From NCBI GenBank assembly GCA_020849275.1, contig JADLGO010000028.1, positions 1 through 64,000 on the forward strand: DNA of 64,000 nt, read 5' to 3'. Position numbers and translations under genes: made by a program. The notes below the pieces were generated by a model. That model saw nothing but the letters and a program-made list of their open reading frames with translations. It was not told the origin of the DNA and searched no databases. Shown in pieces: positions 34,942 to 51,990 of this stretch. Each line of letters begins with the position of its first letter. Within the stretch, counting starts at the first letter, position 1. Source of the stretch: Chthonomonadales bacterium. GTDB lineage: Bacteria; Armatimonadota; Chthonomonadetes; Chthonomonadales; CAJBBX01.

Positions 34942-35976
34942 TCAGCGTGCGGCGGGCCGGCCGCCGCCGCAGGACTGCCGAACGACGATGTGCGGCGTGA
35001 CGATGACGCGCCGCGGTGGCTGGCACCCATCTTGCAGGCGCTCCAGCACCATGCGCACGGCCTGCTCGGCGAATGCCTCGATGGGGTAATCGACGGTAGT
35101 AAGGCGCGGCCGCACCACCTCCGCCAGGTCCAGGTTGTCGAAGCCGACGACGGCGACGCGATCGGGTACCGCGATCCCCATGGCCTCGAGCTCGCGGAGG
35201 ACCCCGGCGGCGAGGGTGTCGTTGTAGGCGAACAGGGCGTCGGGCGGCTCGGCCCGGGCCATGAGGCCGCTCAGTGTATCGGCGAGCGCCCTGTCGCCGT
35301 CGACCGCGGGGCACAGGCTGCCCTCTTCGGGCAGGCCGGCCTCGCGGATCGCCTCCAGGAAACCGCGTATGCGGTCGAACGGGCCGCGCACGGCCGTGCC
35401 GCCCACGAGCACGATGCGCCGGCGACCGGCCGCGAGCAGGTGGCGAGTGAGCGCCCGCGCCCCGGCGGCATCGTCGCCCGTCACCATGCTGAAACGCTCG
35501 GCGCCAGCCACCCAGCCCAGCAGCACGACGGGCACGCCGCGCTCGTGGAGCCTCTCCACCTCGGGGCGCGCCGTCAGGCCGCCGGTCCCGGTGACGACGA
35601 TGATGCCGTCGGCGCGACGCTCGTAGAGCGAGCGCACACACTCGCCCTCGTCCTCCTGATGGGAGCCGCTGATGGTGAGCAACACCGAGTAGCCGGCCCG
35701 GCGCGCCTCCTGCACGCTCAGGTGGATCAGTTTGGGGTAGTAGGGATTGATCACCTCGGGCACCACCAGGCCCAGAGTGCAGGTGGCGCGGGTCGCAAGG
35801 CTGCGGGCGACCCGGTTGACGTGGTAGCCGGCCTGGGCGGCGACGCACCGCACGCGCTCGCGGGTAGCGGGTCTGACGAGCGGGCTTCCGGCGAGCGCGC
35901 GGGAGGCTGTGGCGCACGAGACGCCGGCGAGGCGGGCGACATCCTGCAGGGTCACCACGTCGGGAGTCCCCCCCAT
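34942..35976 (-). CDS. LacI-family transcriptional regulator, 344 aa
   Basis: The helix-turn-helix VTLQDVARLAGVSCATASRA lies at residues 8-27, with the hinge helix around HVNRVARSLATR. The periplasmic-binding-protein-like effector domain follows (GLVVPEVINPYYPKLI, RADGIIVVTGTGG, VVGFDNLDLAEVVRPRLTTV). Such proteins repress sugar-catabolic genes until a sugar binds. The ATG at 35976 lies inside one of two LacI-type operators and has no Shine-Dalgarno, so the mRNA would be nearly leaderless. It is divergent from the sugar ABC-transporter operon, the likely target, and is probably autoregulated. Confidence 0.95.
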   Translation of the reverse strand: MGGTPDVVTLQDVARLAGVSCATASRALAGSPLVRPATRERVRCVAAQAGYHVNRVARSLATRATCTLGLVVPEVINPYYPKLIHLSVQEARRAGYSVLLTISGSHQEDEGECVRSLYERRADGIIVVTGTGGLTARPEVERLHERGVPVVLLGWVAGAERFSMVTGDDAAGARALTRHLLAAGRRRIVLVGGTAVRGPFDRIRGFLEAIREAGLPEEGSLCPAVDGDRALADTLSGLMARAEPPDALFAYNDTLAAGVLRELEAMGIAVPDRVAVVGFDNLDLAEVVRPRLTTVDYPIEAFAEQAVRMVLERLQDGCQPPRRVIVTPHIVVRQSCGGGRPAAR

Positions 35977-50150: not shown

Positions 50151-51098
50151 TCAGCCGTCGCGGAGCCAGCGCGCCTCCTCGGCGGAGAGCGCCAGGCCGG
50201 TCGCCGCCGCCGCCTCCGCCACGTGCTCGGGGCGGGAGGTGGAGAAGAGCGGGATGACGGTGGGCGCCTGGCAGCGCAGCCAGGCCAGCGCGACGGCCGT
50301 GGGCGAGCACCCCAGACGCGCCGCCAGCGAGCGCGCCCGCTCGCGACGCGCGCGGTTCTCGGGCGTGCCGTGGTGCGCGTCGGCCGAAGGTGCGTCACAG
50401 AAGAAGCCGGACGCGGTGGCGGAGTAGGCCACCACGGGCATCCCGGCCTGCGCGTACCACGCCGCGTCCGCGCCGGTGACGTAACGCGTCGTCGGGTCCG
50501 GGCCAGGCTCCCAGGTGGGCCGCGCCAGGCTCCACTGCACCTGCGAGGCAGCGAACCCTCGCAGGCCATGCGCCGCCGCGTAAGCGTTCGCCTCGGCCAA
50601 CCGGGCCGTCGACCAGTTGCTCGCTCCCAGCCACCGCACCGCGCCGCGCGCCGCCTGACGGTTCAGCATCTCGACGATCTCGCCCACGGGGACGCGCGGA
50701 TCGTCCCGGTGCAGGAAGTAGAGCGCGATCGTCTCGACGCCGAGGCGCTCCCGACTCTCGTCCACGTCGCTGGCGACGACCTCCTCGGCAAGGTACGCGT
50801 CCGGCCGCCGATAGTCCGGCCCGCCGTCCGGGTGACCACCTTTCGTCGCGACCACCACGTGGTCGGCGGCGCCCAGGCGGCGAAGCGCATCCCCGAGGGC
50901 GCGCTCGCTGGCGCCCAGCCCCTCGGGCAGCCAGAACGCATAGCAGTGCGCGGTATCGAAGAACGTGCCGCCAGCCCCCAGGAACGCGTCGACGACGGCG
51001 TCGAGAGCCGTGCCGATCAGCCCGGTGCCGAAGGCGCCGGCCCCGAGGCAAACCTCCGAGACGTGGAGATCGGTGGCGTGGAGCGGAATCGTTCGCAT
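50151..51098 (-). CDS. Aldo/keto reductase, 315 aa
   Basis: The AKR catalytic tetrad is visible: Asp48 and Tyr53 in FFDTAHCY, Lys86 in VVVATKGG and His130 in LYFLHRDD. The NADPH-binding C-terminal segment includes VIPLFSTSRPEHV. The barrel is complete. It should reduce a sugar-derived aldehyde or ketose, with the substrate not predictable. The ATG at 51098 has an excellent GGAGGTGA 6 nt upstream. It is divergent from the PEP-CTERM gene and shares with it the 163-nt region holding the sigma-54 promoter. Confidence 0.93.
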   Translation of the reverse strand: MRTIPLHATDLHVSEVCLGAGAFGTGLIGTALDAVVDAFLGAGGTFFDTAHCYAFWLPEGLGASERALGDALRRLGAADHVVVATKGGHPDGGPDYRRPDAYLAEEVVASDVDESRERLGVETIALYFLHRDDPRVPVGEIVEMLNRQAARGAVRWLGASNWSTARLAEANAYAAAHGLRGFAASQVQWSLARPTWEPGPDPTTRYVTGADAAWYAQAGMPVVAYSATASGFFCDAPSADAHHGTPENRARRERARSLAARLGCSPTAVALAWLRCQAPTVIPLFSTSRPEHVAEAAAATGLALSAEEARWLRDG

Positions 51099-51171: not shown

Positions 51172-51187
51172 ATCGCCGCGCGGCGAT
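51172..51187. promoter_or_regulatory. Perfect 16-bp palindrome next to the sigma-54 promoter
   Basis: ATCGCCGCGCGGCGAT is a perfect inverted repeat lying 7 nt upstream of the sigma-54 -24 box. It may be a regulator-binding site. Sigma-54 enhancers are usually 80-150 nt upstream, so a repressor or local activator is as likely. Confidence 0.5.
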
Positions 51188-51194
51188 GGCGCAA

Positions 51195-51210
51195 TGGCAC
51201 GGAACTTGCA
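51195..51210 (+). promoter_or_regulatory. Sigma-54 (RpoN) promoter of the PEP-CTERM gene
   Basis: TGGCACGGAACTTGCA matches the sigma-54 consensus TGGCACG-N4-TTGC(A/T), with GG at -24 (51196-51197) and GC at -12 (51208-51209) at the obligatory 12-nt spacing. Transcription should start near 51221, giving a leader of about 40 nt with AGGAGGA in front of the ATG. PEP-CTERM genes in other bacteria are known to be controlled by RpoN with the PrsK/PrsR two-component system, which makes this assignment coherent. Confidence 0.88.
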
Positions 51211-51261
51211 TAGGGCCTGTCCATCAACGACAGCGCCCTGGCGCACTCAGGAGGACTCATC

Positions 51262-51939
51262 ATGAATGCCTTGCGCACCCTGGCCGCGGCGGCGATCGTC
51301 TGCCTGTGCGCGGCGGGCAGACCCGTCGCCGCCGACGTGATCATCAGCCCGACCGCCGTGCTCGGGAATACCGGCGGCAACTTCGGCGTCGGTTACGAGA
51401 TCGGGAACACGATCGACCATTCCGGGTTGTCGACGGGGTTCGTGAGCGGCGTGGACGACTTCGACGTCTACCTCGCGGGCAGCCCCTCCCACACCTACGT
51501 CGCGTCCGGGTTCGAGTGGTTCACTCCACTCGACGTGACCTCGTCCACGATCACCTATGACCTGGGCGCCGAGTACACACTTACCCGGCTGGCGCTCTGG
51601 AACGAGGAGTTCAGCGGAATCGAGGACATGTCGGTCGCGACCTCGAACGACCCGCTCTTCGGCACGTCGACGGCGGTCGGCGCCTTCAGCCCGACCGACA
51701 GCCCGTTCGACACGGTCTACCTCGCCCAAGTGTTCGCGCTCACGCCGACGAGCGCGCGCTACGTGCGCCTGGAGGTGAGCGGCCCGAACACGCCGTCCCG
51801 TGGCAACTACGTCAGCATGGGCGAGATCGCGTTCGCGACGGGCGCCGCGACCGTCGTGCCGGAGCCGTCCGCGCTGGCGCTCCTTGTCGGCGCCGGCCTC
51901 GCGAGCGCGGGCATGCTCATGCGCCGCCGCCGGACGTAG
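51262..51939 (+). CDS. PEP-CTERM sorting-domain protein, 225 aa
   Basis: A Sec signal peptide (TLAAAAIVCLCAAGRPVAA) is followed by a beta-sandwich resembling an F5/8-type C (discoidin) domain (TYDLGAEYTLTRLALWNEEF, ARYVRLEVSG). The C-terminus is a textbook PEP-CTERM signal: VPEP at residues 199-202, a hydrophobic helix and a basic tail RRRR. An exosortase would cleave and attach it at the cell surface or release it into the exopolysaccharide matrix. No exosortase is in the window. Expression is predicted from the sigma-54 promoter upstream. A perfect 34-nt palindrome follows as terminator. Confidence 0.93.
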   Translation: MNALRTLAAAAIVCLCAAGRPVAADVIISPTAVLGNTGGNFGVGYEIGNTIDHSGLSTGFVSGVDDFDVYLAGSPSHTYVASGFEWFTPLDVTSSTITYDLGAEYTLTRLALWNEEFSGIEDMSVATSNDPLFGTSTAVGAFSPTDSPFDTVYLAQVFALTPTSARYVRLEVSGPNTPSRGNYVSMGEIAFATGAATVVPEPSALALLVGAGLASAGMLMRRRRT

Positions 51940-51956
51940 ACGCCGTACCCATGATC

Positions 51957-51990
51957 GGGACGCGCCGCGCCGGCCGGCGCGGCGCGTCCC
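51957..51990 (+). terminator. Perfect 34-nt palindrome, terminator of the PEP-CTERM gene
   Basis: Bases 51957-51973 are exactly complementary to 51974-51990, which would form a very stable hairpin 17 nt after the stop codon. There is no T-tract. It lies 34 nt before the next gene and probably insulates it from sigma-54-driven transcription. Confidence 0.75.

Follow-up and report, generated by a model that had tools for sequence, protein, structure and literature searches.

The genome analysed here appears to contain a genome-wide sigma-54 regulon which serves mainly the cell exterior and which is driven from solution, without an enhancer, by a sole activator lacking a helix-turn-helix (HTH) domain; we give this reading a probability of about 0.8. 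Approximately 45 sites appear to turn on nearly all PEP-CTERM genes together with part of the EPS machinery. It is best read as the Armatimonadota version of a regulon already known, that of sigma-54 and PEP-CTERM genes, and it would be activated from solution like that of Chlamydia CtcC. The promoters, the genes behind them, the single activator, its missing domain and the co-occurrence in relatives can be read directly from the sequences.

The window, i.e. the whole stretch of 64,000 nucleotides (G000:C28:1-64000), belongs to a 4.8 Mb draft genome of 73 contigs which is 99.9% complete. A first-pass annotation of this DNA had described a sigma-54 promoter with exact GG-N10-GC spacing in front of a gene for a protein with a PEP-CTERM tail (Table 1), and both the sequence and the genome-wide recurrence of the motif bear this out. 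The promoter TGGCACGGAACTTGCA carries GG at 51196-97 and GC at 51208-09, its -24/-12 spacing is exact, and it agrees with the consensus TGGCAC-N5-TTGCW; 51 nt separate it from the ATG. The encoded protein has a signal-peptide-like N-terminus and the C-terminal end VVPEPSALALLVGAGLASAGMLMRRRRT. It exceeds the cut-off of the NCBIfam PEP_CTERM model TIGR02595 (22.5 vs 16 bits), though it stays below that of Pfam PF07589 (16.2 vs 20.7 bits). With a PEP motif, a hydrophobic stretch, a basic end and an exosortase in the genome it is assigned to the PEP-CTERM/exosortase system. An F5/8 type C (discoidin-like) domain is seen only sub-threshold (PF22633, E 1.6e-5, below cut-off).

Table 1. Features around the sigma-54 promoter, in window coordinates.
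Feature	Position	Strand	Remarks
Perfect 16-bp palindrome ATCGCCGCGCGGCGAT	51172-51187		judged incidental, not a shared enhancer
Sigma-54 (-24/-12) promoter TGGCACGGAACTTGCA	51195-51210	+	exact consensus; predicted transcription start at about 51221
Ribosome-binding site AGGAGG	51249-51254	+	7 nt 5' of the ATG
PEP-CTERM protein gene, 225 aa	51262-51939	+	TIGR02595 over cut-off
PEP-CTERM sorting signal (VPEP, hydrophobic stretch, RRRR)	51856-51933	+	PF07589 match; TIGR02595 at residues 199-224

Directly 3' of the gene lies a perfect 34-bp inverted repeat (51957-51990) without a T run, which is probably its terminator hairpin. Allowing one mismatch, two near-consensus sites were found in the window where 0.85 are expected, which is not significant, so that the significance of the site at 51195 comes from the genome-wide data and not from the window alone. 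The second match, at 35021, is regarded as chance: it falls within a LacI-family gene of the opposite strand and has C instead of G at base 7.

Exact matches to TGGCAC-N5-TTGCW occur 13 times in the genome, and from these together with one-mismatch matches the tighter motif TGGCAYG-N5-TGCA was drawn. With the gap left free between 1 and 9 bases, 49 of the 74 genome matches show exactly N5, whereas the eight other spacings share 25 (mean 3.1; Poisson P about 1e-40 for 49 at N5); a Markov model predicts about 5 matches for the N5 form. Moreover, three spacer positions are never G among 37 sites despite a GC content of 72%, a feature which is absent from the search pattern. The refined pattern TGGCAYGNHHYNTGCA yields 45 genome matches, its reversed control none. 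Genome counts with one mismatch gave no excess over the reversed-pattern control, which we suppose to be due to the different dinucleotide content of the reversed pattern, and were replaced by the spacing test and the refined motif. At least four of the matches are probably incidental and not promoters: C2:3089, C37:19355 and C49:71603, which are located inside genes, and C11:91673, which breaks the spacer rule.

The PEP-CTERM HMMs give 29 matches in the genome, four of which (L056-L059) are spurious by sequence, leaving 25 genes. A sigma-54 site precedes 24 of them, compared to a chance expectation of 0.005 of 25; a few of these sites are variants with weight-matrix scores of 8-19. The remaining gene (C60:39551) follows a gene for a 559-aa protein which has its own site (C60:42157), and both form an apparent operon. 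The recurrence of the motif before other PEP-CTERM genes, which the first-pass annotation had suggested to look for, is therefore present before nearly all of them. The other targets comprise an operon encoding sugar transferase, Wzc, glycosyltransferase, acetyltransferase, exosortase, EpsI and ABC transporter (site C54:60150), further a second Wzc, glycosyltransferases and a WecB-like epimerase. Sites are also found in front of a cold-shock-protein gene, a receiver-PilZ gene, a gene for a membrane protein of 193 aa close to the second exosortase, and a MinD/ParA-like ATPase gene which is divergent from rpoN (L123, G000:C2:39070-39085).

Genes for rpoN and exosortases, which had likewise been proposed for a search, are both present: the genome encodes two exosortases and one complete RpoN with all three sigma-54 domains (AID, CBD, DBD). 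Only one true sigma-54 activator was detected, with 244 bits vs 21-31 bits for four weaker AAA matches, in a family search which also gives matches in each of the 14 control genomes, among them archaea. This activator (P0001 on C52, 404 aa) consists of a receiver, a sigma-54 AAA+ domain and a lid, and ends after the lid. No HTH or Fis-type DNA-binding domain was detected in it, and 39 nt past its stop codon the sigma-54 site that precedes the following gene already starts, so that there is no space for a lost HTH. It is hence of type Ic (receiver plus sigma-54 AAA+, no HTH); the activator of locus L170 served as HTH-positive control. Its sigma-54 contact loop reads NAFTGA instead of GAFTGA, with the F and T, described as essential (PMC3162934), kept. 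The same replacement is seen in many Armatimonadota activators (L145-L182). Directly behind the activator gene lies the receiver-PilZ gene (L120:7310-8314) with its own sigma-54 site, and a similar site 3' of the activator gene occurs in five more loci of the phylum (L153, L156, L162, L173 and L174).

The activator gene is preceded by a gene for a kinase of the architecture GAF-GAF-PAS-HisKA-HATPase, in which no strong hydrophobic segment, i.e. no membrane segment, is predicted. In NCBIfam the kinase matches AtoS best (324 bits) and the activator AtoC (475 bits), both far below the respective cut-offs of 646 and 714 bits.

We also looked for an enhancer upstream of the promoters. The palindrome in Table 1, with the halves ATCGCCGC and GCGGCGAT, is separated from the sigma-54 site by a gap of 7 nt (GGCGCAA) and had been put forward as a possible site of a second regulator. 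This idea is not supported, neither as an enhancer nor as a shared operator: the sequence was not found again in front of 46 sister promoters, and the window contains six perfect palindromes of at least 16 bp with about four expected, so that a 16-bp palindrome is ordinary at 72% GC. It may have a role at the divergent aldo/keto reductase gene (50151-51098). Among the k-mers, dyads and palindrome classes in the 250 bp upstream of the 46 sites, none was clearly above shuffled sequences. An EM motif search in the 200 bp upstream regions gave a best motif (w=20) of 80.8 log units vs 61-65 for shuffles, while as positive control the sigma-54 motif itself was recovered with a score of 476; such searches are insensitive to weak, distant or promoter-specific sites. 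The Haft-type motif 1, or PEP-CTERM box, which in Proteobacteria is located some 63 nt before the sigma-54 promoter, was not found at the 46 sites.

The activator is also informative about the host, which had been taken for a probable member of the Armatimonadota; its closest named relatives are indeed Armatimonadota. In 29 of 30 loci of the phylum, that of the analysed genome included, the activator ends 173-186 aa past the FTGA motif and has no HTH. Only that of L170 runs on (252 aa past FTGA) and carries an HTH_8 domain. Ten activators from named records, among them the eight closest matches, have tails of 171-182 aa and no HTH, and are mostly labelled as Armatimonadota (Capsulimonadaceae, Chthonomonadaceae and others), whereas the tails of 51 other named-record activators are 40-80 aa longer (220-257 aa). 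Of 39 loci, at least 25 have a kinase gene directly in front of the activator gene.

Among 119 genomes of at least 90% completeness, 84 contain rpoN and activator, three rpoN only and none the activator only; exactly one activator match is found in 60 of the 87 rpoN-positive genomes. All 35 genomes with at least five motifs have rpoN, and 34 of them PEP-CTERM genes. In the family of the analysed genome, rpoN, the activator, the motif and PEP-CTERM genes either occur jointly or are jointly missing. The five rpoN-positive members (G000, G002, G003, G005, G008) possess the activator, 11-45 motifs and 7-15 PEP-CTERM matches. In the six rpoN-negative ones (G004, G006, G007, G009, G010, G011), all at least 96% complete, there is no activator and no PEP-CTERM match, and 0-3 motifs are found; G001, 78% complete, was left out of this split. 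In G002 and G008 of this family and in G087 and G140 of family f24, the motif sites likewise lie in front of PEP-CTERM genes, and also of genes for sugar transferases, UDP-glucose dehydrogenase, glycosyltransferases and cold-shock proteins.

The link between rpoN, motif and PEP-CTERM genes is not universal, as indicated by family f14, whose mostly rpoN-positive genomes contain up to at least 52 PEP-CTERM matches and only 0-3 strict motifs, and by 11 rpoN-negative genomes with three or more PEP-CTERM matches. Either the regulon is dispensable for PEP-CTERM genes somewhere, or the motif has diverged there. Examples from f14 are G086, G094, G107 and G113, each with many PEP-CTERM genes, one rpoN and almost no strict motif.

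We propose that the GAF-GAF-PAS kinase, for which no membrane segment is predicted, senses a cytoplasmic cue and phosphorylates the HTH-less response regulator. Once phosphorylated, its AAA+ ring would act directly from solution, with no upstream enhancer, and open RNA polymerase-sigma-54 at each TGGCAYG-N5-TGCA promoter. Like the phosphorylation, the cytoplasmic signal and the transcription from these sites, we infer this enhancer-free activation, here from the missing domain together with the missing enhancer. Because there is only one activator in the cell, the whole set would be switched on together: nearly all PEP-CTERM genes, the exosortase operon and the EPS sugar transferases, and by the same switch the chain-length kinases, glycosyltransferases, the PilZ response regulator and the cold-shock protein. 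For much of the Armatimonadota we consider it somewhat likely that sigma-54 has turned into a sigma factor which serves the cell exterior and has a single input. The sole activator, having lost its DNA-binding domain, would there open all sigma-54 promoters at once. Which genes belong to the regulon would then be defined by sigma-54 recognition alone, and gain or loss would tend to affect sigma-54, activator and PEP-CTERM genes jointly.

Against an enhancer-free regulon we count the f14 pattern, the rpoN-negative genomes with PEP-CTERM genes, the NAFTGA loop and the draft state of the genome with its 73 contigs. The same regulon could also be served by an activator which is tethered to DNA through a separate partner protein or through sites far upstream, in which case enhancers would exist and subsets of promoters would be separately switchable. 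Enhancer binding is the rule for nearly all characterised sigma-54 activators, the PEP-CTERM promoters of Proteobacteria carry an enhancer at a distance of about 63 nt upstream (PMC1569441), and the w=20 motif scores slightly above shuffles. We nevertheless regard tethering as unlikely, since the 250 bp upstream of the 46 sites share no k-mer, dyad or degenerate motif while the positive control was readily recovered, and since the sole activator lacks an HTH across much of the phylum.

The canonical PrsK/PrsR/PrsT system of Proteobacteria would likewise result in PEP-CTERM genes under sigma-54 promoters, and a kinase adjoins the response regulator here as well. However, the sole activator reaches only 380.6 bits where PrsR (TIGR02915) demands 502.6, and it has no Fis-type domain; no protein of the genome exceeds the PrsK cut-off (TIGR02916; best 100.4 vs 300 bits), and the adjacent GAF-GAF-PAS kinase without predicted membrane segment contrasts with PrsK, which is a transmembrane protein (PMC1569441). 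Control by PrsK and PrsR, as assumed in the first-pass annotation, is therefore very improbable. A chance consensus match before the PEP-CTERM gene would agree with the counts from the window alone, where the site at 35021 indeed looks like chance, but it is refuted by the N5-specific excess in the genome, the sites at 24 of 25 PEP-CTERM genes and the co-occurrence with rpoN in relatives, and its probability is practically negligible.

In Proteobacteria sigma-54 boxes were reported before 99 of 167 PEP-CTERM genes, together with PrsK, PrsR of the Fis family and PrsT; the activator motif lies about 63 nt 5' of the promoter. Many PEP-CTERM genes, both of proteobacteria and of other lineages, are without that arrangement (Haft 2006, PMC1569441). 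For one PEP-CTERM gene, pepA of Aquincola, RpoN dependence was shown (PMC9850573). The regulon described here resembles the proteobacterial one in the sigma-54 promoters before most PEP-CTERM genes, a similar distance from promoter to start, the link to exosortase and EPS, and the two-component control. It differs by the activator without Fis domain and below the PrsR cut-off, the lack of a PrsK over cut-off and of a detected upstream activator motif, the promoter of the EPS/exosortase operon itself, and the other phylum.

Activators without DNA-binding domain are already known, namely CtcC (PMC7482065) and FlgR, which belong to type Ic (PMC3162934). Like Chlamydia CtcB/CtcC and Helicobacter FlgR, the system described here combines a response regulator with AAA+ and no DNA-binding domain, and like CtcC (PMC7482065) its activator is the single one for a genome-wide sigma-54 regulon and closest to AtoC. 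In contrast to CtcC and FlgR, which act on late developmental or flagellar genes, the targets are PEP-CTERM and EPS genes, the activator is kept over many families of a phylum and not in one parasite lineage, and the loop is NAFTGA. Kinase and activator score best in NCBIfam as an AtoS/AtoC pair, but the scores are far below the cut-offs, the HTH is missing and the targets are different. The combination of sigma-54/PEP-CTERM control with a sole HTH-less activator in Armatimonadota was not found in searches of open-licence papers.

PEP-CTERM proteins are numerous and their role is mostly unknown. Here, PEP-CTERM promoters, the operon of the sorting enzyme and EPS genes seem to belong to a single sigma-54 regulon that has one input. 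The loss of one gene, rpoN or the activator, should therefore reveal the role of the whole PEP-CTERM set. Besides Chlamydia this would be a second large lineage with a sole sigma-54 activator that does not bind DNA, which opens the question when enhancers are dispensable.

Some individual targets are worth mentioning. The cold-shock gene with motif (G000:C46:76919-76934, L143) has counterparts in G002, G087 and G140 (L263, L280, L293) and is a recurrent target across two families. A membrane protein of about 200 aa without NCBIfam match is encoded behind the motif in three genomes (L121:10549-11175, L261, L270); in the analysed genome its gene adjoins the exosortase/EPS export locus. Paired sigma-54 sites on the same strand, 240-300 bp apart, precede single PEP-CTERM genes at C1:118394 and 118698 as well as at C59:28239 and 28478.
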